The notes beneath the pieces were generated by a model. That model worked only from the letters and a program-made list of their open reading frames with translations, was not told the DNA's origin and ran no database searches. The position numbers and the translations under genes are program-made. A DNA stretch of 36,807 bases from a virus: positions 1 through 36,807 of IMG/VR virus record IMGVR_UViG_3300032117_000080; one strand, 5' to 3'. Positions 10,152 to 34,781 of the stretch are shown here, piece after piece (the stretch's first letter is position 1; each line of letters opens with the position of its first letter).

Positions 10152-10156
10152 TTTTA

Positions 10157-10942
10157 TTAATAATTTTGACTTGCGTCTATAAATAATGGTTCGCCATCTT
10201 TAGGGTATCTGTTAAATAATCCTGTATATCCTTGTTGCGGATTGCTTAATTTATTATTAAACCCACCCGTTGTATTTACTGTTTGCTGAATACCCATTGA
10301 CGGATTTGGCGTTTTTAAATTCATAAAATTATTATACGCTGCATCTTTATCTGTACCTGTATTTGATGGGTACATTTGCTGTTCTGTTGATATTTCACCT
10401 GCACTTTGTATTCCTTGTGATATATTTTGTAAACCCGCATTTAGTAATTGCCCACCTGCTGCTGCTTTCATTGAATATAACTGCGCTTGTTTTTGATATG
10501 GCAACATAGAATTAATACCAAATACATATTGGTCATTTGCGTTCTTTTGTCCTGCTGCTTGTCCTAATTGCCCAAATCTTTGTGCATTTTGATTTTCTGC
10601 TGCTACACCTGCACCTTGTAAAGCATTATTTGTTTGAGCATTTATAGCACCTACACTTGCCAATCCACCTCGTCTATCTGTTGCTGCATTTAAACTTGTT
10701 GCTTGATTATTTTCAATATTTTGTTTTTGCATTTGATACAAACGTGATTGATACGGACTTGCACCATACCTACTTAATGCTTCCTGATAATAGTCATTAA
10801 TAGCTTTACTTGGTTGTACCTTTGGTGTTTGCAAATTTTGCAATGCTTGTGTGGCTTTATGCTGTTTACCACCACCAATTAAGGCTTGTACTCCACCCGA
10901 TAAAACAGATGCACCACCAACTGCTGCTGCTATCCAACTCAT
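10157..10942 (-). CDS. Internal virion / DNA-ejection protein, 261 aa
   Basis: The N-terminus MSWIAAAVGGASVLSGGVQ is a glycine/alanine-rich membrane-active segment like those starting T7 gp14-type and P22 gp7-type ejection proteins. The body (residues 40-200) is Ala/Gln/Asn-rich helix with phrases such as NAATDRRGGLASVGAINAQ and GAGVAAENQNAQRFGQLGQ, again typical of that class. The C-terminus is less ordered and Pro/Asn-rich. Its ATG overlaps the stop of the cupin gene and its stop lies 5 bases before the 913-aa gene. Such proteins leave the head first and help form a channel across the host envelope. Family by composition and position, not by a catalytic motif. Confidence 0.7.
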   Translation of the reverse strand: MSWIAAAVGGASVLSGGVQALIGGGKQHKATQALQNLQTPKVQPSKAINDYYQEALSRYGASPYQSRLYQMQKQNIENNQATSLNAATDRRGGLASVGAINAQTNNALQGAGVAAENQNAQRFGQLGQAAGQKNANDQYVFGINSMLPYQKQAQLYSMKAAAGGQLLNAGLQNISQGIQSAGEISTEQQMYPSNTGTDKDAAYNNFMNLKTPNPSMGIQQTVNTTGGFNNKLSNPQQGYTGLFNRYPKDGEPLFIDASQNY

Positions 10943-11406
10943 AGTAATTCTTTTTTATTGTTCAATAATTCTTTGTATATTTTATTTATATCTTCACCAA
11001 TTACCGAATTAGTATGTGGTTCTAATATTCTATTTTCTATTTCTTCCAAATCGGTTGTATTATCTAAATTCACATGAAACGTACTCCATATAGCATCTTC
11101 CCATATATACAAAATTCTTCGTGTTCCTATCTTAGTTGTATCACTAAATGGTGCTTCCATTGTTACCCATTCACCATTATCTATCTTTACCGAAACTTTA
11201 CCCTTTGATAATACAAATGGATGGTTTGTTTTATGAATCTTAGATGTTACCAATGTACCTGCGGGCATATATATTTCTCGTATGTACATTTTATCGGTAA
11301 ACCTATGAATCAAAGGACAATCAATCGGTTCTAATTCCAACATTGCTGCTTCCAATTCATCAATTCTATCATCTTCCACCCGTACTATTTCTTCTGTTTC
11401 AATCAT
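10939..11406 (-). CDS. Cupin-fold protein, 155 aa
   Basis: Residues ~38-125 have the pattern of a single cupin barrel: MYIREIYMPAGTLVTSKIHK, then LSKGKVSVKIDNGEW, then GTRRILYIWEDAIWSTFHVN. Small phage cupins of this exact layout are common beside tail or ejection genes and are usually annotated only as cupin-domain proteins. Residues 1-30 form an acidic coiled segment (EDDRIDELEAAMLELEP). The start codon overlaps the stop of the 1325-aa gene, and its stop overlaps the next ATG, so translation is coupled on both sides. Histidines H58, H61 and H113 could bind metal, but the full cupin metal set is not clear. Role in the virion is unknown. Confidence 0.65.
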   Translation of the reverse strand: MIETEEIVRVEDDRIDELEAAMLELEPIDCPLIHRFTDKMYIREIYMPAGTLVTSKIHKTNHPFVLSKGKVSVKIDNGEWVTMEAPFSDTTKIGTRRILYIWEDAIWSTFHVNLDNTTDLEEIENRILEPHTNSVIGEDINKIYKELLNNKKELL

Positions 11407-14400
11407 TACTTTTCATTTAATTGACTTTGTATGAACTTAACCGATGGGTTTATCAAAGTTAAGAATTTACTTCCATCTGTTAGTGTAAATGTTATAACTA
11501 TATACGTTCCCTTCAAAAAATCGCCATTTAGTAACCCTTTTTGACTATTTGCATCCCTTAAAAATGCTGCTTGGTATTCACCTTCCAAAAGTTTAAAATC
11601 ACTATCAATTAGCGAACTTTGTTGCGGTGTACTACCGTATGAATATAGCTGTGTGTAAATTGTGGGGCAATTAACGGTTATATTTGAATTTACCTGTACA
11701 TTCTGCCATGATTTTTTAAACTCGTTAAAATCGTTAAATATGACGGTTACAGATGGCTTAAATTGTGTACCGTAATAATTGCAGTAGGTTGTGTTATTAT
11801 TGTGTACATACAGTAATCCGTTATTCCATGAATAAAGCGTATTTTCTGCACATAAATAATGGTCTGCACCAAAATCATAAAAAGTAGGGAATACATTAGT
11901 TCTTTCAATAAAAGAAAGTGTTTCGGATGCCAATGTTGAACTTCCATTTGTACCGCCCTGTGTTACAAATAATACTTCACTATCCCTATCTTCTAAGAAA
12001 TTATAAACTGCTATTAATTTAGATGTGCCGCCTGTTGGATAATTATAAGTACCGTTATATTCTGTTAATTTACTACCCGCCCATGTTTGTACTTTAAATT
12101 CTTCACTTATTGGGTCTAATCCATTTAAACTTTCCCTTACTAAATATCCCTTAATCGGGTCAAATAAATAAAACTGATAACCATTATGACATACACCTGT
12201 TCTTTGTGTTCCTATTCCATAATCACCATCGTAATATTGTACGTTATTTCTTGTTATAATTTCATCAGTTGTAATTAATGTTGTTTGTCCTGCTTGGTTT
12301 TTTATAAACTTACCGTATATAGTTGTTACTCCACATTTTCTATTTTGGAATATTTTTAATTGCCTACCGTTTACAATCATTCGTTGCGTATCTCCAAATG
12401 ACTTATCAAATTCATCAAAATTTTCAGGATAAAATCTATTTGTATTATTTATATTAGTTCCTAAAACATAAGGTTCTGAATATCTAAATAATGTAGAAAA
12501 ATATTGTTGTAATGAAGTTCTGTCCTGTACTAATGGTCTTGAATCACTATTTGTATATAATGAATAACTATCGCTAAATGAAGCATCATAAATAGGTACT
12601 GAAACACTATTCAATACATCTAATCTTAAAGTAAATTGTCCTATTATTAAGTTTGGCAATCCACTAAAATCGGGAGCTTGTGTTAAATTACTTGCTATAA
12701 TAAAAGCGTTATATCCTGCGGGTACTGTTATTGTTGCATCAAAAGCAAAATCATAGTTTGTATTAATCTGCAATATTTTTTGTTCAACTACTATCTGTAA
12801 TATCTGATATGTACCACTTGCATTGATTAATTTAACATACATTCCAGAAGTAGTAGCACCTGCTGATGCTTGTAATGATAAAGTATATTCACCCCTTATT
12901 CTTATTGAAATAGGACTTGAACTTATATTTTGGAATAAACCACCATTTGATTGTACAGGGTAACTTGAACTTGGATTATTTATTGCGGGTGTATTATTAC
13001 CTACTACTTCTGTATTACTTTGATGCCCTACTACATAATTTGAAGTAGTTGTATCATTTGCTGCCTGATCAAAATTAACTAAAAATGTAGTAAACTGATT
13101 CCCGAATTGATAGTTACCTGCGGGTAAATAATAAGATGCTCCTATTGGTATATTTCTTGTTCTTAAAAAGACATCACCATCAGTTAATGATATTTGATTA
13201 TCAGCAACATTACCAATGTGATATGCACTTACTGTTCCTGCATTACCTATTCCGTATTGTTGTCCTATTTCATAGTAAACATTGCTATCTGTTGTTGCTG
13301 TCGTTGGTTGATGTTCTTGTATGCTATAAATTAATATTTGATAGTTTTGAAAGTTCGGTGTACCGTCAAATTTAAACGTACTGCCAATATCGCTTGTTGG
13401 ATAATTTATTTGTAAAAATGTTCCTGTTTTTTGTATGCCATTTAATACGGGATTTTGAACAGTTCCTAATATTGCATAATCGTATGTGTATGGTGTAAAA
13501 GTTCCTGCTACATTATAAACACCAACTATTTTAACTCTATCTCCTTGTGTAAATTCATAAGAAACTACATTTGAAGTTGATTGTATTTGTTGGTTATAAA
13601 GTTGAATATTATCAATTTCTAAATAAGCATATTGGTTTTGTACATACTGACCTATATTACTATAAGCACCATTGGTAATCCACCAAAGATATTTATTGTA
13701 AGTAAGTGTATCTGTTCTAACTAAATGATAGTATGTTGCCCATGATGGCGGTGTAAATCCTGATAAATCAATATTAACTAAAATTAATCCATTATTGTTT
13801 AAATAATATGCACCGCTTGGTGTATTTATATTAGCTGTTGCATCTGTAATGACTCCATTGGTTCTACCTTTTGAATCGTAATAAACAACCCCATAAGAAT
13901 ATCCTGAAAATGGATAGTGTGCGAATTGTTGTGTATTTGCGGGTGTTGTATTACATAAAGAAAAATAAGCAGATTGTAAAACAACATTTGATAGGCTAAT
14001 TGTTAAACTATTCCCTGTTGAAGATACATAAGTATATCCTGCTGATACTGCTGCTGTTTGTAAACCTGATAATATATTTGCAATATTTGTATCGGTTGAA
14101 TTAGTATATGAAAAATTATAATTGGTAATACCAACTTTTGCTCTTACATTCAATCCCAATGGTGGATTGTCTAATGTTGTAGGTAAATTTGTTGTACCGT
14201 CATTTGTTCCTACACCTGTTAAATATATTGTTATATTATTAGTTCCTTTTGGTTGATATGCAAAAAATAAAACACCATTAACTGTAAAATAAGGTGCTGT
14301 ATATGTACCACTATCTGTTATTGCAAATGATGAATTTACATAATTGTATCCTTCTAAAATTCCGCTATATGCAACCGTACTGCCATCTAATAATGCTTGG

Positions 14401-18807: not shown

Positions 18808-19689
18808 CTATTCACCTTCGTAAATATCTTTGTACACAAAAATAAACCCTTTACGAATTGGCTTACCATTGTTATATTGTGCTGCTCTATTAATCGTTCC
18901 TTTTGGTACACCTAAATCTATGGATGCTTCTAATGCTGACGGATATTCAACTATTTTATTTTTTTGAATTAAAAGTACAGGTCTTTTTTCACCCTTTCTT
19001 TTAATTTCAACCGATTCAATTAGTAATGGATAATTTTCTGTTTTAAACTTAAAAATATATTTTCCTTCAACCCCTGTAATCTTACTATGGCAACTTTCAC
19101 TTACGCTTGCACGATTAACACCTAATATTTGTGATGCTTCATTAGTGGAAATAAATTCTCTCAAAAATTCACCTTTATGATTATAACAAACAACAGGCTT
19201 TCTTGATTTTTCATGACTTTTTTCAGCACCCCATTTAGGTATTTCTCTACCAATAATTTTGCTTGATATTTTTGCTTTTTCTGAAATTATTTTTTTAGTT
19301 TCTTCCGTATGTTTTTTACCATAAAAAGGGGCTTTTTCTCCCTTAAATAATTCACTCATGTATTTCCTACGTTCCAAATCGTGCATCCATGTACTTCTTT
19401 GACCTTCACCGCCCTTAGTTAAATTCATACCATCAGGGTAATAAAAGTTGTATGTTTTTAATTTTGCAATCCAAAATATTTCTCTTTCATTTAACTTTTC
19501 ATCCAAAACATTATCTTCAATAATTTCAAGTTTATGGTTATCCCATCCATATTTTTTAATGGAATTAATAACAATACTTGTTCTACCATTCAGCTTATAT
19601 TTATAATCACTTATTCTTCTTTTCAAATTCCATGTTTTGCCAACATAGATTCTTCCATTTGGATTGGTAATTTTATATATAACTCCCAT
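18808..19689 (-). CDS. GIY-YIG homing endonuclease with NUMOD3 and two NUMOD1 repeats, 293 aa
   Basis: The GIY-YIG nuclease occupies residues 1-95: VIYKITN, RIYVGKTWNLKRR, and the catalytic glutamate E70 in NEREIFWIAKL, closing with MNLTKGGEG. A NUMOD3 DNA-binding motif follows (KAPFYGKKHTEETKKIISEK, about 119-138). Two NUMOD1 helix-turn-helix modules come next: KPVVCYNHKGEFLREF with NEASQILGVNRASVSESCH (164-216), and RPVLLIQKNKIVEYPSALEA with LGVPKGTINRA (236-286). This is the full I-TevI-like layout, so the enzyme is probably active. It sits between MCP and the 294-aa gene as a free-standing gene and has its own promoter. It is likely a selfish mobile element that spreads by cutting phage DNA lacking it. 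Confidence 0.92.
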   Translation of the reverse strand: MGVIYKITNPNGRIYVGKTWNLKRRISDYKYKLNGRTSIVINSIKKYGWDNHKLEIIEDNVLDEKLNEREIFWIAKLKTYNFYYPDGMNLTKGGEGQRSTWMHDLERRKYMSELFKGEKAPFYGKKHTEETKKIISEKAKISSKIIGREIPKWGAEKSHEKSRKPVVCYNHKGEFLREFISTNEASQILGVNRASVSESCHSKITGVEGKYIFKFKTENYPLLIESVEIKRKGEKRPVLLIQKNKIVEYPSALEASIDLGVPKGTINRAAQYNNGKPIRKGFIFVYKDIYEGE

Positions 19690-21252: not shown

Positions 21253-22410
21253 TTACGCATCCCAAATGGCATCATACTGTTTTTTAATTTGCTCTGATGC
21301 TTCGGGTTTAAATGTACCTTGTGGCTGTTGATTCAGATTAAGGTTCATTTTTTGTTTTATTTCCTGTTCATATCTCTGCGCTGCTGATTCATTAGCCAAT
21401 TTTTGCGCTACCTTTTTACCGTTAAGCATCCAAAATAAATCTTCTTTAGCTTGGTCTGACTTTGGATTTCCTGCCTCATCAAACCATCTACTTCCGATAA
21501 ATTTGTTTACATCATTGTTTTCAATAGCATCGGATAATATCGTCTGCATTTGTGCTTTTTCTTCATTGCTTAATGTATAGCTTATTGGTAATTTAACTTC
21601 CCCGTTAATTACTTCAAAGTCCACACTATTAAATGAATTAATTGCTTGTCCTATTTGCTGAATGTGAGATTTTTTAGTAGCTTCAATTTCCTGTAATTCC
21701 TTTTCAGATAATTGCGGTACTTCTTCTCTTTCACCAAATATATTTTTTAAAGATATTTCACTTTTTAATTTTTCTAATTCAGGCTTTGAAATATTAGCCT
21801 CAATTAAAAGTTCTTCTTTAATATCGTTTACTTGTCTTTGCCATGAATTTACCCTTTGCTCATATTCACTATCTAATTCATCTGAAAATTGTGCAGGTTT
21901 TTCAGGCATAGCAAATTGTTTATTATACCTGTATTCTATTTGTGCATCTGAAAGTGTTGGGTATTTTTCTTTCATTGCCAACTTAACTACTTGCGGTGCA
22001 TTTTTTTCATCTAATTCTGCACTCAATAAATTTTCAATAGCTTGCTGTTTTGCTAAAATAGAAAGTGCTTCACTTTTTTTACCTGCTGCTATTGCTTCAA
22101 ATAATTGTTTACTTTCTTCATTTGCAAATTCAGGTTGTTTAAATTCTTTCCATTTGTTGATTTGTTCTTTTGCAACTTCTACACTATCAAACCCAAAGTT
22201 TTCTTTTAGATAGGCATTGTAATCAACTGTTGGAATTTCTTTTACTTCAACTGTTTTTGTTTCTACTACTTCTGGAGTAGTTATAGCTTCGTTCCCTTGT
22301 ACTGCTGTTTCAGAAATTGCTCCCTGTGCCTGTACAGTAGGTGCTTCTTTCCATGAGTCCTCGTCAAATGGAGATGCTACTTTAGTTTGTTCGATTATTT
22401 CTTCGGACAT
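21253..22410 (-). CDS. Putative scaffold protein, 385 aa
   Basis: A highly charged, helix-rich protein with no cysteine and few aromatics. It begins with an acidic, low-order region (SPFDEDSWKEAPTVQAQGA) and continues with long amphipathic helices (AIAAGKKSEALSILAKQQAI, LEKLKSEISLKNIFGEREEV). The C-terminus is Gln-rich, then basic-acidic (PEASEQIKKQYDAIWDA), as in scaffold C-termini that bind the MCP. It lies directly upstream of MCP, where scaffolds normally sit. No protease motif seen. The function follows from composition and position only. Confidence 0.65.
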   Translation of the reverse strand: MSEEIIEQTKVASPFDEDSWKEAPTVQAQGAISETAVQGNEAITTPEVVETKTVEVKEIPTVDYNAYLKENFGFDSVEVAKEQINKWKEFKQPEFANEESKQLFEAIAAGKKSEALSILAKQQAIENLLSAELDEKNAPQVVKLAMKEKYPTLSDAQIEYRYNKQFAMPEKPAQFSDELDSEYEQRVNSWQRQVNDIKEELLIEANISKPELEKLKSEISLKNIFGEREEVPQLSEKELQEIEATKKSHIQQIGQAINSFNSVDFEVINGEVKLPISYTLSNEEKAQMQTILSDAIENNDVNKFIGSRWFDEAGNPKSDQAKEDLFWMLNGKKVAQKLANESAAQRYEQEIKQKMNLNLNQQPQGTFKPEASEQIKKQYDAIWDA

Positions 22411-22802: not shown

Positions 22803-23078
22803 TTATCCAATAGTTATTGTTTCTGATGCTGCTAAAACATAAGGCGTACTTGTTGAATCCAATGTTCTTGTTGGCAATTCGGGTGATGCTGTAAATTGTG
22901 TACCTTTCGGGTCAACATAAGTTACATACCCTACTTTTGAAGATGAACTAATAGTAACTTTAGCACCAACTGTAATAGCTGCTAAATGTGCTACAACATC
23001 TGCTTGACTTAATGTTATAGTTACTGATTCTCCTTCGTTTGCTTGACTTGCGATTTGGTTGACTATATTAAATGCCAT
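22803..23078 (-). CDS. Small structural protein, 91 aa, unknown
   Basis: A short, beta-rich protein (ESVTITLSQADVVAHLAAIT, KVTISSSSKVGYVTYVDPKG) ending LAASETITIG. Its ATG lies within the last codons of the GIY-YIG/HNH endonuclease gene (11-base overlap), so the endonuclease was inserted right up to its start. Sequence type and place between portal and scaffold suggest a capsid or head-tail accessory protein. Function unknown. Confidence 0.55.
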   Translation of the reverse strand: MAFNIVNQIASQANEGESVTITLSQADVVAHLAAITVGAKVTISSSSKVGYVTYVDPKGTQFTASPELPTRTLDSTSTPYVLAASETITIG

Positions 23079-23820
23079 TGTAATTGTTTTTATTTTTTGA
23101 TGATTTATTTCTTTTACACTCCATTACTGGTGTATTAATTATTCTATCAGCATCCCATTTTTTACTTCTCCTGCTTTTAACTAATTGCAATGGGATATTA
23201 AATTTATCAGAAAACATTTCACTTGTGTACATTTCATTATTATATTTTATACACCTACATCTATCGGAATAATTAATTATATCTTTCGTTGATTTTAATA
23301 CAATAGTATTTTCTTCTGTAAATCCTTCATTTTTATTTTTTCTACTTATAGCACACCCATTAACCCAATTATTATTTATTGCCCAATTATAAAAATTCAT
23401 AAAATTATTAACCCAATTATCACAAATTAAAACGCCCTTACCGCCATATAAATAATACGCCCTATTATTACTGTTATAACATGCCTTTTTTAGATTAGTC
23501 CATACTGTATATAATGGATATTGACAATAATCATGTATTAATCTTCCTTCTCCCCCATTAGTCATATTTGATAATATGCCTGTTCCCAAATCAATTCTAC
23601 CGTATAATTGTATAAATTCTATTTCTTTCTTTTTTGCATCTTCCCAACTTAAATCATCCATTATTATTTCTACTTCATATTCTGTTTTATTTACAATACG
23701 CTTCCATATTATATTTCTATTAGAACCAACACCATCATTACACCTTCTTTTTCTTTTACTTATCCCAATGTAAAATGGTTCGTTTTTATCAAGTCTTATA
23801 TGTCTATAAACGTATGCCAT
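23068..23820 (-). CDS. GIY-YIG endonuclease fused to degenerate HNH-like domain, 250 aa
   Basis: Residues 1-95 form a GIY-YIG nuclease: AYVYRHI, EPFYIGISKRKRR, E68 in KKEIEFIQLYG, and LSNMTNGGEG. Residues 102-181 follow the scaffold of the HNH endonuclease found at 33988-34668: LYTVWTNLKKACYN, YGGKGVLICDNW, GFTEENTIVLKSTKD. There the catalytic ERDD is replaced by SRKNKNEG, so this half is probably a DNA-binding remnant. The C-terminus is Lys/Asn-rich. The ATG overlaps the portal stop (TAATG) and the 3' end overlaps the next start, so it depends on portal translation. It is a mobile-element gene set between portal and a head gene. Confidence 0.82.
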   Translation of the reverse strand: MAYVYRHIRLDKNEPFYIGISKRKRRCNDGVGSNRNIIWKRIVNKTEYEVEIIMDDLSWEDAKKKEIEFIQLYGRIDLGTGILSNMTNGGEGRLIHDYCQYPLYTVWTNLKKACYNSNNRAYYLYGGKGVLICDNWVNNFMNFYNWAINNNWVNGCAISRKNKNEGFTEENTIVLKSTKDIINYSDRCRCIKYNNEMYTSEMFSDKFNIPLQLVKSRRSKKWDADRIINTPVMECKRNKSSKNKNNYNGI

Positions 23821-26249
23821 TAAGCTGCTTGTGATTGATTTGGTTGCTGTTGTTGTTCTTGCATTTCTTCTTGTGGCTGCTGTTGCATTTGTTGTGCTGC
23901 TTGCTGTGCCTGTTGTTGTAATGCAATTCTATTTCCTGCATTTTTCATAAATAATGGTAATGCTACATTATTTATAATTTCTTGTTCTGTTCCCTTCCAC
24001 TCATTCGGTACTTGTACACCTTTAGCCATTAAATCCATGAATCCTTGCAATAAAATTTCTTCTTTTCTATTATCACTTTCACTTTGGCTTATCTGTCCTT
24101 TTATTTGCATTTCTTGCTGTTGTAATGCTGAATCAGATTGTGCTTTTTGTGCTGCACTTTGCTGTTGTGTTTGTGCGTTCATTTGTGCATTTTGTGCAGC
24201 TTGGTCTTGCTGACCTTTTATTGCTCTTTTTTGCGCTTGCCTGTAAAATAATTCGGCTAATTTTACATCCTCACGAGCCATTCTGCGAATTTTGAACGGG
24301 TCTATATATAGTATAAAATCAGGATTTGTTTGTAATGAATTATTTAACATTCCATCTAATACAGCTATTTCTTGTTCGGTAGGTAACATTCTCATTTTTG
24401 TTTCAAATACCCTACCTTTTACTTCATCTTGTTTTAGTATTTGTCTATACTTTTTACCGTCATAAGAAACACTTGCATTTAATAAACAAGCTACTTTTTT
24501 AGCTGTTTCTTCCATACAATAAAGGAAAGCATCGTACATATAATCTGTTGCATCATTACCTTGTTGAATAGCGGCTTGTACATTACCTTCTGTTACTCTT
24601 GGTTGTGCTGCCTGTTCTGCAAGTGATACATCTTTACCTAATTCGTCTTTTAATACTTGGTAATGGAATTGATAATCTTTTATTAATGATTCTAATTGAT
24701 TGGCAAAACCCGCATTTGGTAATTCTGTAATTGGCATTGGTATTGGGTTTCCTTCTGCATCCCTACCACGATAATATAAATTACCTGATTGTTCCCAAAT
24801 CTTTTGTGCTTCTAACGGTTTAGTCATTGATGCCAACCCTAAATCTAATTCCTGCATTGCATCAATATTAATAGCTGCACCTGCGGGTTTCATTTTAGCT
24901 ACAAGTTGCTGTATTTTCAACCTTGCTAAAATCATTTGGTCTAATGGTTCTTCTATTTTTTCAGGTATTGCAACATTTCTCATATCATAATTCTGATACA
25001 TATAGAATGAATATGAAAATTCTGCATTGCCTAATTCTTTAGGGTCTTGCGGTCTAACCATATTTTGTTTAACACCCCATTCTAACAAATAATTATTATC
25101 AGTTAAATAAACACCTTCATAAATATTCCACTCTTTTTTTTCTATGTATTCCTGATTTTCTTTTAATTTATTAGTTTTACCTTTCTTTATAAATGTACTT
25201 TTAATATCTTTTGCCTTTGTAATAGTTACCCCTGTTGTATCTAAACTTCTTAATTGGTATCTAACTGCATTAATATTCCATTCATCATAGGGTCTTATAA
25301 TGCTTACATTCCAATTATCTAACCATGTTATTTTATCGTATAATTGATATTCTCTTGCCGTACAAGCAAAAGCAAATATTTGTTCTTCGGTTAGTGCATT
25401 TGGATTTTCGGGATGAAATTCTTTACCGTATTTAGCCCTTAATTCACTTATTTTAATTGTATAAACGTGTCCCCTCCATGTAGTATCTCTAAAATCGGGA
25501 TATTCCGAATATGAATAAATCATATTTTCAGGCTTAATCCATTCTACAATAATTTCACCATCTTCATTCATGTATGTATAAGTGCCTATCAATCCTGTTT
25601 CTGCACTATCATGTAATTGTTTTTCTTTTAATACACCTGTCCAACCATTAGCTTCCATAATGTCATTAACACCCATTTCGTATTTTATTTCTTCGGGAAG
25701 TTGGTTGAATTGTAAAACCCATTGGTCTAAATCGTCTTTATCTTCTGGAATAAATTGGTCGGGCTTTGTCATTGGCACACCCGATTGCTGATTTAACATT
25801 GCTAATTTATCTTTATTAGCAAGTATCATTTCTGCTTCGTCTGCTTGTTTTCTTTTTGCTTTTTGACTTTGTAAATCAACCGCCTCAACATCTATTTTTT
25901 CATTCCTTGCCATCCATTGACTAACCATTCTTGATATGGTAGTAGATGCTATTTTAATGCAAGCCCAATTTATATTTGCGTAGTTTACTGTACCGTTAAA
26001 ATCAAGCCTGTCTTGGAATTGACCCATATCAATTCTTCCGTTGGCTATATTTCTATTTTTTCTGAAACGGTTATTTCTAATCCAATAGTAGGAATTATTA
26101 CTTCGTATTGTGGAATTAATATACGCCCCCAAATTCTTGCCATATACCATCCCTCTCTTTTCTTTGGTATCGGAAGTTAATTGAAAATTACGCAACGCTA
26201 AATTGCCGCCACTTTGTTCAGGGGAACTTATAGTAGTTATTGAATCCAA
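23820..26249 (-). CDS. Portal protein, 809 aa
   Basis: Placed directly after TerL and of the usual length for crAss-like portals. The N-terminal phrase GQFQDRLDFNGTVNYANINW (residues 75-94) and following segment RMVSQWMARNEKIDVEAVD are characteristic of this family's portal. The middle is alpha/beta with a clip-like region (KIEEPLDQMILARLKIQQL), and the C-terminal 150 residues are Gln/Ala-rich coiled coil (QQQAQQAAQQMQQQ). Twelve copies would form the dodecameric vertex that packages DNA with TerL. The start used is a TTG just after an in-frame stop; a 10-bp hairpin ends one base before it. An ATG at 26150 (residue 34) is an alternative start. Confidence 0.82.
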   Translation of the reverse strand: MDSITTISSPEQSGGNLALRNFQLTSDTKEKRGMVYGKNLGAYINSTIRSNNSYYWIRNNRFRKNRNIANGRIDMGQFQDRLDFNGTVNYANINWACIKIASTTISRMVSQWMARNEKIDVEAVDLQSQKAKRKQADEAEMILANKDKLAMLNQQSGVPMTKPDQFIPEDKDDLDQWVLQFNQLPEEIKYEMGVNDIMEANGWTGVLKEKQLHDSAETGLIGTYTYMNEDGEIIVEWIKPENMIYSYSEYPDFRDTTWRGHVYTIKISELRAKYGKEFHPENPNALTEEQIFAFACTAREYQLYDKITWLDNWNVSIIRPYDEWNINAVRYQLRSLDTTGVTITKAKDIKSTFIKKGKTNKLKENQEYIEKKEWNIYEGVYLTDNNYLLEWGVKQNMVRPQDPKELGNAEFSYSFYMYQNYDMRNVAIPEKIEEPLDQMILARLKIQQLVAKMKPAGAAINIDAMQELDLGLASMTKPLEAQKIWEQSGNLYYRGRDAEGNPIPMPITELPNAGFANQLESLIKDYQFHYQVLKDELGKDVSLAEQAAQPRVTEGNVQAAIQQGNDATDYMYDAFLYCMEETAKKVACLLNASVSYDGKKYRQILKQDEVKGRVFETKMRMLPTEQEIAVLDGMLNNSLQTNPDFILYIDPFKIRRMAREDVKLAELFYRQAQKRAIKGQQDQAAQNAQMNAQTQQQSAAQKAQSDSALQQQEMQIKGQISQSESDNRKEEILLQGFMDLMAKGVQVPNEWKGTEQEIINNVALPLFMKNAGNRIALQQQAQQAAQQMQQQPQEEMQEQQQQPNQSQAA

Positions 26250-26317: not shown

Positions 26318-28378
26318 TTAAGCAACTTGCATAGTGCCTTTTTCGTAAGTTTTAATCATTGGCTCTTTTCTTTTTTGTGGCACATATTCTGGTTCTAACA
26401 AACAAACAAGCATCATTAAAAATGACACTATCGTATCATACTTTGTTCTATTATCAGGGTCAAAATCCTTTGATTCGCTTAATATTTCTTCAAAATCTAT
26501 TAAATGTATATTATTTTCAAAATATGCAATACCTACATCTACTTGTTTTGTTAAACTAAATGGAGTTGTCGGAAATCCGTAATATCTTTCTGCTGTTTCT
26601 CTTTTTGATGGGTCTATTGTTAGCATAGGGAATTTACCAAGATATGCAACTTTACCTCGTTCTCTAAAATAAGACAGGAAATCATCACTATTAAATTCAT
26701 ACCAGCATTTATAACCATAATACATAGCGGCAAGCATTACCTGTTCATGTAATGTTTCTTTTATTGGTGGTCTGCCATAAAGATGACCTACCGCTTTGCC
26801 TGTATTATCCGCATTAAAAATATCCATTCTTCTGCCTATCCATGCTGATGCTTTTGAACCAAATTTTCCACCCTGACTATTGCTATAACCATCAATCGCT
26901 ATTACGCCATCTTTTGTTCTTGCGGGTTTTCTTACACCACTATCAATTATATGTTTATTTGAATCTTCTTTTTTGGGTAAGTATGTTACACGCCAATAAA
27001 ATCCATTTTCCGTTTCAGGAACATCCCTATAAGATACTTCCTGTTTATCATTCATGTAAAATAAAATACTTCTTTTTACTATTGGATTATCGTGTAATTC
27101 TTTTTCTCTATTATCAATATTTAATACATTGAATATACACTTATCCGAATCAGTTAAAAATGCTTCCTGTATAGTTAATGGTTCTTTTCTAATACGGGCT
27201 GATAATGCTCTTGGGTTATTTTTTACAGTTTCCCTATCAGCCATTATTGCTTGCAATGTTTTTTCTACATCAGGATAACCGTACAAATCAAAGTTTCTTG
27301 TATTTTTAGCTGACATAAAGAAACGATATAACCCGCTTGAAGTTCTACCATTTTCTTTTTTATTTAATTGGTCGCTTTCATCCCAAAGTAATTTAAAGGC
27401 ATCCTGAATACCATTATTTTCTGTATCAAGTTTTTCAACCGTAGTAGTATAGAGTGCCTTACCTATTATATTACCTTCATCATCAAGCAAACAATATCTT
27501 AATACTTCATGTCTATCATATACATTTACTTCTATTGTCTTTCCTATCTCATCATTTACAAGGCGATGTAGTTTTTGTCCATCATACGCAACTGTATCAG
27601 CACTTTGCCAATCAATAATAGAACCTAATTCATCTTTATCTACATTTTCTTCTGCTTTTTTACCTCTTACATTTGTTTTTTGAAAACGCATTTCAGACTT
27701 TGGGTTTACACCCAATGACATATCATATTCAGGTCTGAAAAATTTAGGTAATCTTCTAAACGGATTAACTACTGTTTTAGCAAAAAATTTCTTCGCATCT
27801 CCACCTGTTTTGCTTTGAATACCACCATTTGTCATTTTAGTTCTTGTTACATATTCAGTAACAAATAAACCTGCTATAAATGATTTACCAAACCTACGTT
27901 TGGTAACTTCCAACATACCCATACAAAAATTATCTTCAATACAATATTGTAAAAAATAAAATTTTTCTAAATCAGGCATACGAAACTTTGGACTTCCAAT
28001 ATCTATACTCCACCATTGTAAATAAAAATAGTGCATACCTGTTAGATATACAGCCTTATCATTATTTTGATACCAAAAACCATTTAATCTTCTATCCCAT
28101 TCTTGTTTTTTAAATTGTTCTAATTTTTCATCGTAAAAATCTACTTCATCTTCTTTTTTCCTTTTATCATAGTCATCCCATTTTTTTATTGTGTCTTTAT
28201 ACCATATAGGCAACGGTATTTTTTCCCAATAACAATCTTTATCATTATTTGAACGTCTATAAACGCCCCTATATTCTATTTTGCTTGTAAAGAAATTCCA
28301 CACATATCCTTCGGGTGGGATACAACAATCCAACCCTTGAATATCTATAATAGTTCCACCTTCTAATTTTTGATACAT
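26318..28378 (-). CDS. terL: Terminase large subunit (TerL), 686 aa
   Basis: The ATPase half shows a Walker A variant VTKRRFGKS (residues 158-166), Walker B HRLVNDEIGK (D276, E277 catalytic) and a coupling motif YTTTVEKL (310-317). The C-terminal nuclease (RNase H fold) begins at GVIAIDGYSNSQGGKFGS (D496). Length is that of large crAss-like TerL proteins. It pumps DNA into the procapsid through the portal and cuts the concatemer. Its ATG overlaps the stop of the 128-aa gene (TAATG), so the two are translationally coupled. Confidence 0.93.
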   Translation of the reverse strand: MYQKLEGGTIIDIQGLDCCIPPEGYVWNFFTSKIEYRGVYRRSNNDKDCYWEKIPLPIWYKDTIKKWDDYDKRKKEDEVDFYDEKLEQFKKQEWDRRLNGFWYQNNDKAVYLTGMHYFYLQWWSIDIGSPKFRMPDLEKFYFLQYCIEDNFCMGMLEVTKRRFGKSFIAGLFVTEYVTRTKMTNGGIQSKTGGDAKKFFAKTVVNPFRRLPKFFRPEYDMSLGVNPKSEMRFQKTNVRGKKAEENVDKDELGSIIDWQSADTVAYDGQKLHRLVNDEIGKTIEVNVYDRHEVLRYCLLDDEGNIIGKALYTTTVEKLDTENNGIQDAFKLLWDESDQLNKKENGRTSSGLYRFFMSAKNTRNFDLYGYPDVEKTLQAIMADRETVKNNPRALSARIRKEPLTIQEAFLTDSDKCIFNVLNIDNREKELHDNPIVKRSILFYMNDKQEVSYRDVPETENGFYWRVTYLPKKEDSNKHIIDSGVRKPARTKDGVIAIDGYSNSQGGKFGSKASAWIGRRMDIFNADNTGKAVGHLYGRPPIKETLHEQVMLAAMYYGYKCWYEFNSDDFLSYFRERGKVAYLGKFPMLTIDPSKRETAERYYGFPTTPFSLTKQVDVGIAYFENNIHLIDFEEILSESKDFDPDNRTKYDTIVSFLMMLVCLLEPEYVPQKRKEPMIKTYEKGTMQVA

Positions 28379-29336: not shown

Positions 29337-29628
29337 ATTGTATTGTTTTTACCCATTCATTAAATGATAATGGTTCAAATTCTTTCCATAAATATCTTAT
29401 TTCTATCCCATAAAATTCTAAATCAGGTTTACCCCATCCATTTGAATTTTTCCATGATTGTCTTTCTATTTCAATCATATCATCCCATTTAGTAAATTCA
29501 TAAATTTTTGAAAAAGATATATTTTCATCTACTATTCTAAGGTGCATTTTATTTTTAAATGCAAGTTTATCTATTAAATAACGACCATATTGTTTTGATA
29601 TTTTTATTTTATTTTCAATATCATTCAT
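29329..29628 (-). CDS. Small protein, 99 aa, unknown
   Basis: ATG at 29628 overlaps the end of the 274-aa gene by 8 bases. The sequence is mixed alpha/beta, aromatic-rich toward the end (WKNSNGWGKPDLEFYGIEIR, LSFNEWVKTIQYE), suggesting a compact binding module. I do not recognise it. Operon position only links it to late genes around TerL. Confidence 0.5.
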   Translation of the reverse strand: MNDIENKIKISKQYGRYLIDKLAFKNKMHLRIVDENISFSKIYEFTKWDDMIEIERQSWKNSNGWGKPDLEFYGIEIRYLWKEFEPLSFNEWVKTIQYE

Positions 29629-30445
29629 ATTTTACAGCTTTATTTGGCTCTAACCCTATTAATAATTCACCTTTTTTTACTTTTTTAGTTAGTTCGTTCA
29701 TTAATGCTATTATTTCTTCTCTATCGTTATATTGATTTTCAAAATGCCTTAATCTTATTATTTTATTTTCTCTACCATCTACATCTTGAAATACTATTGT
29801 GTAATCAGAAGCATAGACTACTTGGCAAACATTGTTTTTATATTCACCACTTGTTATCCAAAGTACATTTTTAACTTGTGTTGGTTCAATGCCTGTTAAA
29901 GTGCCATTATATGGTTTATAAACTCTTAATGCGGTTGCCCATCCTTTACATGGATGCCATTCGTTACTATTTTGTTTTCTATATAAAAAACATTCTTCTT
30001 CAGGTACAGAAAAGTATTTTATTGTGGCTTCTTTTTCTTCTCCCGATAATGATAGGTAATTAAATATTTGATTTACGGGATGGCAGCTATTATGATGGAT
30101 AAGTATTTCAGCCCCTTGTGGTAATCCTTCACCATTTACTACTATTGCATTTACGGGTTCTGTTTCTCGTCTGTTTAGGTTGTTATATTGCCTTTCTAAC
30201 CGTATTTTTAACCCATGCTCAAACGTGTGATTATTTTTACCTTCCATATCTAATTTAACTACAACTCTCCCTTTTACGGGCATTAAATTAGAATCATCAC
30301 GTTCTAATATTTTTTTGTTTATTCTTTCTACTTCTGATGCAACACTTGTTAATACTTCAATTCCTTTCTTTTCAAATCCTAAAATATCTTCTTGTGATAC
30401 AAATGTTTTTGACTTATCGTAATGATACTTTTGATTAATTCGCAT
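29621..30445 (-). CDS. GroES-like barrel protein with C-terminal SH3-like domain, 274 aa
   Basis: Residues 55-123 follow the strand plan of a Cpn10-like barrel: MPVKGRVVVKLDMEGKNN, FEHGLKIRLERQYNN, ETEPVNAIVVNGEGLPQGAE, and ILIHHNSCHP (115-124). The region 190-245 (VKNVLWITSGEYKNNVC, then VVYASDYTIVFQDVDGREN) looks like an SH3/KOW-type barrel. Proteins of this layout are common in Bacteroidota phages. The clustered His residues (H117, H118, H122) may bind metal. Whether it acts as a true GroEL partner is doubtful because no mobile loop is obvious. The start at 30445 overlaps the 79-aa gene. Confidence 0.55.
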   Translation of the reverse strand: MRINQKYHYDKSKTFVSQEDILGFEKKGIEVLTSVASEVERINKKILERDDSNLMPVKGRVVVKLDMEGKNNHTFEHGLKIRLERQYNNLNRRETEPVNAIVVNGEGLPQGAEILIHHNSCHPVNQIFNYLSLSGEEKEATIKYFSVPEEECFLYRKQNSNEWHPCKGWATALRVYKPYNGTLTGIEPTQVKNVLWITSGEYKNNVCQVVYASDYTIVFQDVDGRENKIIRLRHFENQYNDREEIIALMNELTKKVKKGELLIGLEPNKAVKYE

Positions 30446-30697: not shown

Positions 30698-30892
30698 TTA
30701 CTTTTTACCTGTTAGTACGTTTTTAGCAAAATTTGCTTGGCGTTTTGCGGCTTTGCCATATTCACCCCTTAATGCGGCTGCTTTTTTAGAAGCGGGTATT
30801 TTTTCGTTTAGCGGGGTATGGGTTGATTTATGTAATCCGCCTTTTTCTATGGTTATTGGTTTGTACCCTTCACCTTTGATTACTTCTTTCAT
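30698..30892 (-). CDS. Small basic protein, 64 aa
   Basis: N-terminal half contains TIEKGGLHKSTHTPLNEKIP, and the C-terminal half is strongly basic (ASKKAAALRGEYGKAAKRQ, NFAKNVLTGKK). The charge suggests nucleic-acid binding, perhaps inside the head. The ATG at 30892 follows the stop of the 75-aa MCP-motif gene by 4 bases, so it is co-transcribed. Function unknown. Confidence 0.55.
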   Translation of the reverse strand: MKEVIKGEGYKPITIEKGGLHKSTHTPLNEKIPASKKAAALRGEYGKAAKRQANFAKNVLTGKK

Positions 30893-30896
30893 ATTT

Positions 30897-31124
30897 TTAT
30901 ATTTTATCGTGAAATGTCATCATACAATTATAATAATTTTCATTACCGTATTTTGCTACCATTTGTTTATAATAAGACGGTGTTAATAAATTCAAATCGT
31001 TTTGTAATTTATTATTGATTTTACAATCTAAATTTGTAACTTTTTTGTTAAAATCTATTTCACTTATAATCTTAGGTACTACCGCTAATGTAAGCAACGA
31101 TTTAAAAAAGTGATTTCTATTCAT
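30897..31124 (-). CDS. 75-aa protein with Tat-like leader and major-capsid N-arm motif
   Basis: The ATG at 31124 is preferred over an upstream TTG at 31160 because it leaves a 10-base gap after the previous stop. Residues 1-22 (MNRNHFFKSLL, then TLAVVPKII) look like a Tat-type leader with only one Arg (N-R-N in place of R-R). After a spacer, residues 44-70 share LNLLTPSYYKQMVAKYGNE with the MCP, where residues 30-49 read LQLLTPQYYKKYVEKYGNE. Most positions are identical, including LLTP, YYK, KYGNE. The protein ends soon after the motif. It sits between a GT9-like gene and a basic-protein gene. The role is unknown; homology of the motif is near-certain, export is a guess. Confidence 0.65.
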   Translation of the reverse strand: MNRNHFFKSLLTLAVVPKIISEIDFNKKVTNLDCKINNKLQNDLNLLTPSYYKQMVAKYGNENYYNCMMTFHDKI

Positions 31125-31134
31125 AAAATCAAAA

Positions 31135-31950
31135 TTAACAATTATTGAACAATTTACCAAAGAGGTATTCTATGGCATTTTGGTGGTAGCCATCATACGC
31201 ATTTTCACCAATAGGTATTACATTAGGCAAGTTAGGGCTTATTTCTAATAGTCTTGGTACTTTCATAGCTTCTGCAAGTTGAAAACATGATGATTGATTG
31301 CCTAAAAAAAACTTGCATGACTTAATAGCCTGTGCAAGTTCTAAAAAATTATCAACCATTAAATATGGTACTTCTATTTTCCATTGGTCGCAAAATTGTT
31401 CGTATTCATCATAAAGTCCTGCAAATATTATATGCTCTTGGTATTTTTTAAGAAAAAAGTAATTTAGTAGGTAATTTCTGTAACGGTCTGTAAAGTTTAC
31501 GATTATTTTTCCCCTAACTTTATAAAATGATACTTCATCAACTTTTATCCATTCTTTACTTAAATCACATGACATTTGCGGATAAACATAGAAAAGCCAC
31601 CTATTTAAACTGCCTCTTGGTTGATTTGTAAATGTTTCCATTCTTGCTTTATCTAAATCATATTCGTATTCTTGTCCTTCAAAAATTATATAATCTTCAA
31701 TGTATTCCTGACTTATTAATAATGGTCTAAGCATATTGAACATATACTCATTCATTTTTATTGGGTCGTCTTGTTCGTCTTTAAATGGGTGTTTAGCACC
31801 TTCATATCCTTGCCCCTTGCTATTAATATGCTGATAAATAATTGATTTTATACCCGTATTTTTATGTAATTCTTTTATCCCTGCCATAGCAGCCAATAAA
31901 TCACCTGCGGGATTTGCTGTCTTTACTCGAATAAAATTTTCTTCTTTCAT
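31135..31950 (-). CDS. GT9-like (heptosyltransferase-type) glycosyltransferase, 271 aa
   Basis: The start matches the GT9 opening loop: KTANPAGDLLAAMAGIKELH (residues 9-28), where family members carry an RxxxLGD. The C-terminal nucleotide-sugar side is clearer: NFLELAQAIKSCKFFLGNQS (about residues 200-219), then SSCFQLAEAMKVPRLLEISP, parallel to the GT9 phrase with a small/acidic core and an adjacent AxxxxxxP helix. GT9 enzymes add heptose or similar sugars to lipopolysaccharide or proteins. The length is short for the family (usually ~350), as in phage variants. It begins the right part of the divergent region with the plus-strand gene at 32027. Confidence 0.6.
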   Translation of the reverse strand: MKEENFIRVKTANPAGDLLAAMAGIKELHKNTGIKSIIYQHINSKGQGYEGAKHPFKDEQDDPIKMNEYMFNMLRPLLISQEYIEDYIIFEGQEYEYDLDKARMETFTNQPRGSLNRWLFYVYPQMSCDLSKEWIKVDEVSFYKVRGKIIVNFTDRYRNYLLNYFFLKKYQEHIIFAGLYDEYEQFCDQWKIEVPYLMVDNFLELAQAIKSCKFFLGNQSSCFQLAEAMKVPRLLEISPNLPNVIPIGENAYDGYHQNAIEYLFGKLFNNC

Positions 31951-32026: not shown

Positions 32027-32296
32027 ATGGCAGGTAACAATCACTTTTTAACACAGATTTACGGGGTAGCTTATCCCGAAAACGCTTCTGTTATCAATCC
32101 CGTAAACGGTGCAATGGGTATTGCAAATTCATTCCCATCAGCAGGTTACAGGGCTTTTAGCTTAACAACTGCTACAACCATTTTAGGTGTAACTGTAAAC
32201 AGCGTTATTGAATCAGTACCAACAGGGTTGAACACAAAATCATTAAAGTTCTATTCTGTGGACAGTGTTGCAACGATTAACACAGCAGCTACTTAG
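32027..32296 (+). CDS. Small abundant-type protein on the opposite strand, 89 aa, unknown
   Basis: The only convincing plus-strand gene. It starts MAGNNHFLTQIYGVAYPENA, is rich in Ala, Ser, Thr and Val (SLTTATTILGVTVNSVIESV), and ends SVATINTAAT. No signal peptide or membrane segment is visible. Asn is mostly AAC and the G+C content is higher than in neighbours, as in the MCP, implying very high expression. It is a single-gene unit with a promoter at 31966 and a tight terminator at 32324. It resembles a small beta-rich surface or capsid-decoration protein, but no family is recognised. An alternative is an abundant early/regulatory peptide. Confidence 0.7.
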   Translation: MAGNNHFLTQIYGVAYPENASVINPVNGAMGIANSFPSAGYRAFSLTTATTILGVTVNSVIESVPTGLNTKSLKFYSVDSVATINTAAT

Positions 32297-33987: not shown

Positions 33988-34668
33988 TTATAAATATATA
34001 TTTGACATTGTTCTTCTATCAATAATTCCATAATTATTGTAGTAATACATAAATGTATCAAAAGATTCTCTTTTTAATTGAGAATGTAATCTTCTAACAT
34101 CTATATTTAATTTTATTGCCCAATCCTGCAAAATCATTCTTTCCCCATTATATTCTAACCATCTATTTGTTCTCCTATTACCGCATTGTTCTTTATTTGT
34201 AGCCCATCTACAATTTTCAGGTGTGTAATCACCATTAACATCATCTCTCTCAATAGAATATTTTGGTGTTGGCTTATTACCCATATCTTCTAAAAAGTTC
34301 TCAAAACTATGCAGCCATCTGTCGCAAACTTTAATATTTCTGCCACCATAATATTTATACGAAGGCGTTTTTTCATTATAGCATCTATTTTTCATCCTTA
34401 CCCATGTACTATATTCCTTAGTTATTTTACCAACAGTTCCACAACCATGTTTTTTATGAGTTGCCCCATTTTTAGATGCTACTAACTTTTGTAAACATCC
34501 GCAAGATTTAGTATTGCCATACATTAATGCTGAAACTTTAACTATATATTCATTGCCACAATCACACTTACATAGCCACCTATAAATACCATCACTTCCC
34601 TTATCTGAAATTCGTATAGCAACTAATTTGCCAAATCTTTTATCTGTTATATTTAGTTTAGTACCCAT
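33988..34668 (-). CDS. HNH homing endonuclease, 226 aa
   Basis: ATG at 34668; an upstream TTG/ATG would lie in the structured leader. A zinc ribbon (RWLCKCDCGN at 30-39 and KSCGCL at 54-59) is followed by the nuclease core: YSTWVRMKNRCYN (86-98), YYGGRNIKVCDRW, then SIERDDVNGDYTPENCRWAT (138-157) with ERDD and the ENC residues. A C-terminal helix-turn region (LQDWAIKLNIDVRRLHSQ) suits DNA binding. Probably active. It lies between two sugar-modifying genes and is likely a free-standing mobile gene. Confidence 0.88.
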   Translation of the reverse strand: MGTKLNITDKRFGKLVAIRISDKGSDGIYRWLCKCDCGNEYIVKVSALMYGNTKSCGCLQKLVASKNGATHKKHGCGTVGKITKEYSTWVRMKNRCYNEKTPSYKYYGGRNIKVCDRWLHSFENFLEDMGNKPTPKYSIERDDVNGDYTPENCRWATNKEQCGNRRTNRWLEYNGERMILQDWAIKLNIDVRRLHSQLKRESFDTFMYYYNNYGIIDRRTMSNIYL

Positions 34669-34695
34669 AAAATAAAAAATTCCCCCAAATAGAAG

Positions 34696-34781
34696 GCTTA
34701 CCCAATACACGATTAAGTGGAGAGGCATCTAAGTGGGAGATTAATTTAATATTTTTTTTACACATTGTGTATTGAGTAAGC
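34696..34781 (-). ncRNA. Structured leader upstream of the HNH gene
   Basis: Minus-strand RNA can pair GCTTACTCAATACAC with GTGTATTGGGTAAGC (15 bp, one G-U), from + positions 34767-34781 and 34696-34710, enclosing ~56 bases. A shorter ACATTG/CAATGT stem (34762-34767 with 34781-34786) overlaps and competes. It is a candidate regulatory leader rather than a gene product. Confidence 0.45.

Follow-up and report, generated by a model that had tools for sequence, protein, structure and literature searches.

CapRel and Lit are both triggered by phage capsid protein, Lit through a short internal peptide of the T4 capsid protein, Gol (PMC9712102), and capsid proteins also trigger Thoeris and other defences (PMC11312562). 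In Gol/Lit, CapRel and staphylococcal Thoeris, the host sensor recognises either a piece of the major capsid protein (MCP), as with Gol, or the MCP itself (PMC9712102, PMC11312562). There the trigger fragment is part of the MCP, whereas the locus described here encodes a separate, accessory, leader-bearing protein. Phage satellites, too, encode small accessory proteins that act on the assembly of capsids, the capsid-redirecting proteins of the Sid and Cpm type. Likeness to capsid sequence does not enter into their definition.

The window, by which we mean the whole stretch of 36,807 nucleotides analysed (IMG/VR record IMGVR_UViG_3300032117_000080), has a terminase large subunit (TerL) that shares about 27% identity with its counterparts in Cellulophaga phages (Baltivirus, Pachyviridae) and Flavobacterium elemoviruses; because of this resemblance its host is probably a member of the Bacteroidota. 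We put at about 90% the probability that its 75-aa gene joins a leader to a copy of the MCP N-arm kept by selection at the protein level, that the gene is accessory, and that it is part of a wider architecture in which Tat-type leaders are joined to pieces of virion proteins, most often a terminus of the MCP that the phage itself encodes. Such an architecture of leader plus capsid fragment appears undescribed. No such small protein was found by tblastn of representative leader proteins and the 75-aa protein against INPHARED (about 50,000 GenBank phage records), and we found no description of such proteins in the open-access literature. The carriers are environmental phages, and no carrier came to light among cultured ones. 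What would be new is the architecture, its function being putative.

An MCP arm in a small accessory protein

The 75-aa product (MNRNHFFKSLLTLAVVPKIISEIDFNKKVTNLDCKINNKLQNDLNLLTPSYYKQMVAKYGNENYYNCMMTFHDKI) is encoded in a long row of minus-strand genes that continues with the GroES-like, terminase, portal, scaffold-like and MCP genes (Table 1). Its ORF starts 10 nt past the stop of the upstream gene and ends 4 nt ahead of the start of the next. PHROG searches gave 0 matches and Pfam searches none, and an AF2 model (pLDDT 59) is too uncertain for use.

Table 1. Positions in the window of the small gene, its parts and the genes discussed with it
Feature	Position	Strand	Remarks
75-aa capsid-arm mimic gene	30897..31124	-	Family of six in IMG/VR; purifying selection
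Leader, residues 1-25	31050..31124	-	MNRNHFFKSLLTLAVVPKIISEIDF; RN rather than RR; hydrophobic stretch; PKI motif; family alignment
Capsid-arm segment, residues 36-71	30912..31019	-	Local alignment to MCP 22-57
271-aa gene, upstream	31135..31950	-	In sequence and place like a 269-aa gene that precedes the small gene in L087, L126 and L163
64-aa gene, immediately downstream of small gene	30698..30892	-	
GroES-like co-chaperonin gene	29621..30445	-	phrog_13932, E=2.8e-5; ~0.5 kb downstream of small gene
Terminase large subunit	26318..28378	-	phrog_6681, E=6.5e-71
Portal protein	23820..26249	-	phrog_6547, E=4e-50
Scaffold-like protein	21253..22410	-	
MCP, 476 aa	19788..21218	-	Virion structural protein phrog_13704, E=6e-17
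MCP N-arm residues 22-57, copied segment	21048..21155	-	Not confidently modelled (pLDDT about 30)

The preliminary description had reported that this protein carries the N-arm motif of the MCP, and the match is firm. Residues 44-64 are identical to MCP residues 30-50 at 15 of 21 positions, and the alignment of residues 36-71 with MCP 22-57 has a BLOSUM score of 90, compared with a maximum of 54 in 5000 shuffles. A search within its own record gives E=1.7e-7 for the MCP. Among the loci then compared, the next best own-locus ORF scored 58 and was of low complexity. The motif is absent from all other frames of the window and so, as had been claimed, is unique there apart from the MCP. An AlphaFold model of the window MCP has the phage VP1 and crAss001 capsids as its fold matches in the PDB; the small protein, at 75 aa, has only the arm of the MCP and neither the full-length fold nor a match to the phrog_13704 profile. 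Between the two arms pS is 0.81, with synonymous sites saturated, and pN is 0.32, which makes the likeness an old one that has been kept at the protein level. Recent copying of MCP DNA is ruled out by this saturation. The leader reads MNRNHFFK, in agreement with the pattern MNR(R)xFxK of the proposed class of leader and virion-fragment proteins, and the tail, with its score of 90 against 54, resembles a terminus of the MCP of its own phage, as in that class.

A single-sequence scan of IMG/VR with the 75-aa protein found no relatives, nor did two scans of genome contigs. Scanning with the arm alignment, and later with family alignments, yielded five from IMG/VR (L133, L087, L126, L163 and L475). 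In the alignment, all six members share M1, N2, R3, K8 and, within the arm, KYG without exception. Pairwise dN is 0.25-0.54 and dS 0.73-2.9, and on these estimates the small gene is under purifying selection in the window family. In L087, L133 and L126 it is preceded at a short distance by a gene resembling the 271-aa gene of the window and followed by a GroES-like gene; in L475 it stands ahead of genes that read as GroEL and GroES. A lack of conserved homologues had been named as fatal to the idea of a capsid mimic; homologues were found in related phages, near packaging and chaperonin genes, and the idea is now strongly supported and more general than the window alone.

The distribution of the gene is patchy. 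Among 50 whole records from that MCP clade, only L133, L163, L087 and L126 have it. In L001 a different 97-aa ORF stands at its place, although the MCP and TerL are practically identical to those of the window. By presence and absence in these records, the small gene is accessory.

The region of the small gene also contains a lone plus-strand gene of 89 aa (window 32027-32296, +) without a PHROG match. Small reverse-oriented genes like it stand in the corresponding region of L087 (8617-8949, -), L126 (409-681, -), L163 (7817-8089, -) and L475 (3059-3286, -), and it is apparently conserved across the relatives. Elsewhere in the window, minus-strand genes at 18808-19689, 23068-23820 and 33988-34728 are, by reading of the sequence only, probably homing-endonuclease-like; they adjoin the MCP, portal and glycosyltransferase-like genes.

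Probable exchange of the arm within a pair of related phages

The DNA of L087 and that of L133 agree at 92% of positions over 9470-12228, and at 96% between portal and MCP. Two tracts diverge, one being the arm within the small gene (50-77%) and the other the block of TerS-like and TerL genes. In the small gene dS is 1.54 in the arm, compared with 0.46 in the leader and 0.57 in the tail, and since the arm lies far above its flanks, the arm tract alone was probably replaced within the gene. The capsid gene, unlike the arm tract and the terminase, was not exchanged. The arm of L087 scores 108 against the MCP of L166 and 107 against that of L165, which belong to a different phage group, compared with 62 against its own MCP. 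L475 has an MCP of this second (L165/L166) type, and the arm of its small protein resembles it (LNF, KYGN, and MEQLG against MEILG). The foreign-type arm of L087 together with the matching arm of L475 indicates that the arm is an exchangeable module.

The other divergent tract, L087:12228-14502, is a clean swap of the TerS-like and TerL genes relative to L133 in phages that are otherwise 92-96% identical. TerL of L087 is 66% identical to that of L009 and 40% to that of L133. L009, the nearest TerL relative compared, carries the other type of MCP arm. The notion that the arm tracks the terminase was set aside, there being one such event and, in L009, a counterexample; we keep it as a lead.

Leaders joined to virion pieces in unrelated phages

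IMG/VR was scanned twice at the DNA level, first for MNRRx[hydrophobic]2K with a TP motif behind it, and then tail-blind for MNRRxF[FL]K; counts below are among the matches listed. Contigs of 38 carriers were examined, most of them whole. The resulting 85 leader proteins are a sample, not a census, and mix both scans, so they include TP-containing proteins of the first. M1, R3, R4 and K8 are invariant in this set, which was itself chosen by that pattern. For each protein the leader was removed and the best match taken among the large ORFs of its own contig or locus.

Among the matches listed, 7/85 leader proteins score at least 60 against a large protein of their own contig, compared with 0/529 random pairings with other contigs. 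Six of the seven targets are MCPs and one is a probable portal. The own-contig targets belong to P22_CoatProtein in G087 and G069, to Phage_capsid_3 in G077, to the major head protein phrog_14242 in G075 and G063, and to phrog_1357 in L205, with the probable portal in L370. The strongest case is a TRR-leader protein of G063, which scores 148 against its own MCP, followed by G075 (123), G087 (96), L205 (94), the window (90), G077 (75) and G069 (71), each well above shuffles. The MCP families involved are five: phrog_13704, phrog_14242, phrog_1357, P22_CoatProtein and Phage_capsid_3. Other small ORFs of the same contigs also match large ORFs at times (9/566 at a score of at least 60, 5/566 at 70 or more), and the top targets of these ORFs read as genes of other kinds, one of them possibly a portal gene. 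At a score of at least 70, leader proteins exceed these controls (6/85, among the matches listed, vs 5/566; Fisher p=0.001).

Independently of the own-contig comparison, leader proteins also match major-head families directly by profile, phrog_283 four times and also phrog_334 and phrog_267. The tails of L205 and G056 match annotated capsid proteins in INPHARED by tblastn, that of G056 annotated P22 coat proteins and the MCP of Xanthomonas phage PBR31. L352 and L363 match the N-terminus of phrog_14242-type MCPs from other contigs (E=2e-13 and 3e-11). Compared with MCPs of the five families, the leader proteins keep only about 25-55 MCP residues and miss the fold core. Their tails align to the MCP at its termini, save in G069 and G056, where the aligned segment is an inner one, and in G077 the tail is the MCP C-terminus (332-361) followed by the MCP N-terminus (11-49). 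Single proteins carry other virion pieces: L370 has a portal piece (score 80), and L206 a terminase-like one with a weaker match (score 59). Several further scores are weak and are not counted as evidence: 52 for L225/L219, equal to the shuffle maximum, 57 against a shuffle maximum of 51 for G090, and 36 for a second protein of G075. A second protein of G063 is also weak (63 against a shuffle maximum of 61), yet is included in the 7/85.

The RR-leader protein at L351:3759-4187 (-) has for its tail a C-terminal domain from a contractile tail sheath (phrog_23, E=1.2e-19). Neighbouring pairs of RR-leader genes with like leaders and unlike tails occur at L370:4707-5407 (-), L232:4939-5666 (-) and L306:12539-13305 (-); G063 too has adjacent leader proteins with different tails. 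A small ORF beside an RR-leader gene, L472:9652-10020 (-), contains a 27-aa piece that matches a 536-aa, possibly portal, protein of its own contig (score 75).

Possible functions of the capsid-arm protein

It is fairly probable that the small protein acts by competitive mimicry of the MCP arm towards some partner: its capsid-derived segment would take up the partner to which the matching part of the MCP normally binds. The likeliest partner would be a host sensor of newly made capsid protein, as in CapRel, Lit and Thoeris. A decoy would stop such a sensor from firing, with the leader serving to keep the decoy at the membrane or to have it removed. We put forward this putative function of host-sensor decoy tentatively, at less than even odds. 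Likeness to the phage's own MCP is what a decoy needs, and it is well established that capsid proteins set off bacterial immunity. The accessory gene, the adjacent leader proteins with different tails and the swap of the arm tract are features of an arms race, and pieces of other virion proteins turn up in single cases (tail sheath in L351, portal in L370, terminase-like in L206). The leader genes of G063, L352 and L363 lie among genes that we judge from sequence to be of replication type, so their products may be made ahead of the capsid protein. Own-MCP likeness, fast-changing genes and this replication-type neighbourhood fit a decoy best.

Several points count against the decoy. A fragment can activate rather than block, as Gol alone activates Lit, and the arm of L087 fits a foreign MCP type better than its own. 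A decoy in the cytosol would have no clear use for the leader, whose Tat features are not kept across the clade. Among the matches listed, 78/85 leader proteins are without an own-contig match at a score of at least 60. The early position is read from neighbouring genes, and the sensor is a hypothetical one here. A somewhat lower likelihood still attaches to the broader proposal of a widespread class in which leaders were joined many times independently to virion pieces, chiefly from the ends of the MCP that the phage itself encodes, and would blind host sensors of structural proteins. If that class is real, phage proteins built from the structural pieces that immunity recognises would give a direct handle on how phages answer immunity. 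Even as assembly regulators or poisons of competitors, these proteins would represent a repeated modular architecture across five MCP families. Being short and orphan-looking, they may have gone unnoticed for that reason, and a search rule follows from them: to compare every small leader protein with the structural proteins that its own genome encodes.

Alternatively, the protein could be the phage's own regulator of assembly or packaging, its arm binding scaffold, neighbouring MCP or terminase and its leader holding the complex at the membrane, which would time or place head assembly. The copied segments are mostly N- and C-terminal ends of the MCP, typical assembly-interface elements, and G077 joins one such end to the other. 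The gene of the window clade lies near packaging and chaperonin genes, that of L205 between terminase-like and portal-like genes, and the L087 arm changed where TerS-like and TerL changed. However, the gene is accessory even among near-identical phages such as L001, the L087 arm departs from its own MCP, the genes of G063, L352 and L363 lie in a replication-type region, and the terminase link is a single event, while L009, the nearest in TerL at 66%, carries the other type of MCP arm. On balance we find a role as assembly regulator rather unlikely.

A weapon against co-infecting phages, in which the fragment poisons a competitor's capsid assembly, would suit the L087 arm, which sits in an exchanged tract and fits the L165/L166 MCP type instead of its own, and would also suit a patchy, fast-changing gene. 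In the other clear cases the likeness is to the MCP type of the carrier itself, whose assembly the fragment would then harm, and we regard such a weapon as improbable. Neutral capture, by which leader genes pick up fragments of coding DNA whose tails have no capsid-related function, is no likelier than the weapon. The tails are very diverse, most match nothing, and ordinary small ORFs do sometimes match a large ORF of their contig. However, dN is well below dS in the window family, the two arms differ far less at nonsynonymous than at synonymous sites, leader proteins exceed the controls, their targets are MCPs rather than random genes, and the architecture recurs in five MCP families.

The preliminary description had read the leader as Tat-like and suggested a place for the protein in the host envelope. 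The hydrophobic stretch stands, and a hydrophobic leader is found in 5/6 family members, all except L126. Twin arginine is present in L087, L133, L126 and L163, with RN in the window and RG in L475, and 0/6 members match the Tat model TIGR01409, so the Tat assignment is weak and the envelope location unsupported for this clade. An exported Tat substrate acting in the host periplasm or inner membrane is the least likely reading, in spite of the hydrophobic leaders and of the TIGR01409 matches in other phages. Unlike Tat-signal proteins (TIGR01409, PF10518), the window family fails the model and does not keep the twin arginine, and the tails studied are virion fragments. The wider leader class does look Tat-like in sequence, and 43/85 of its proteins, among the matches listed, match TIGR01409.
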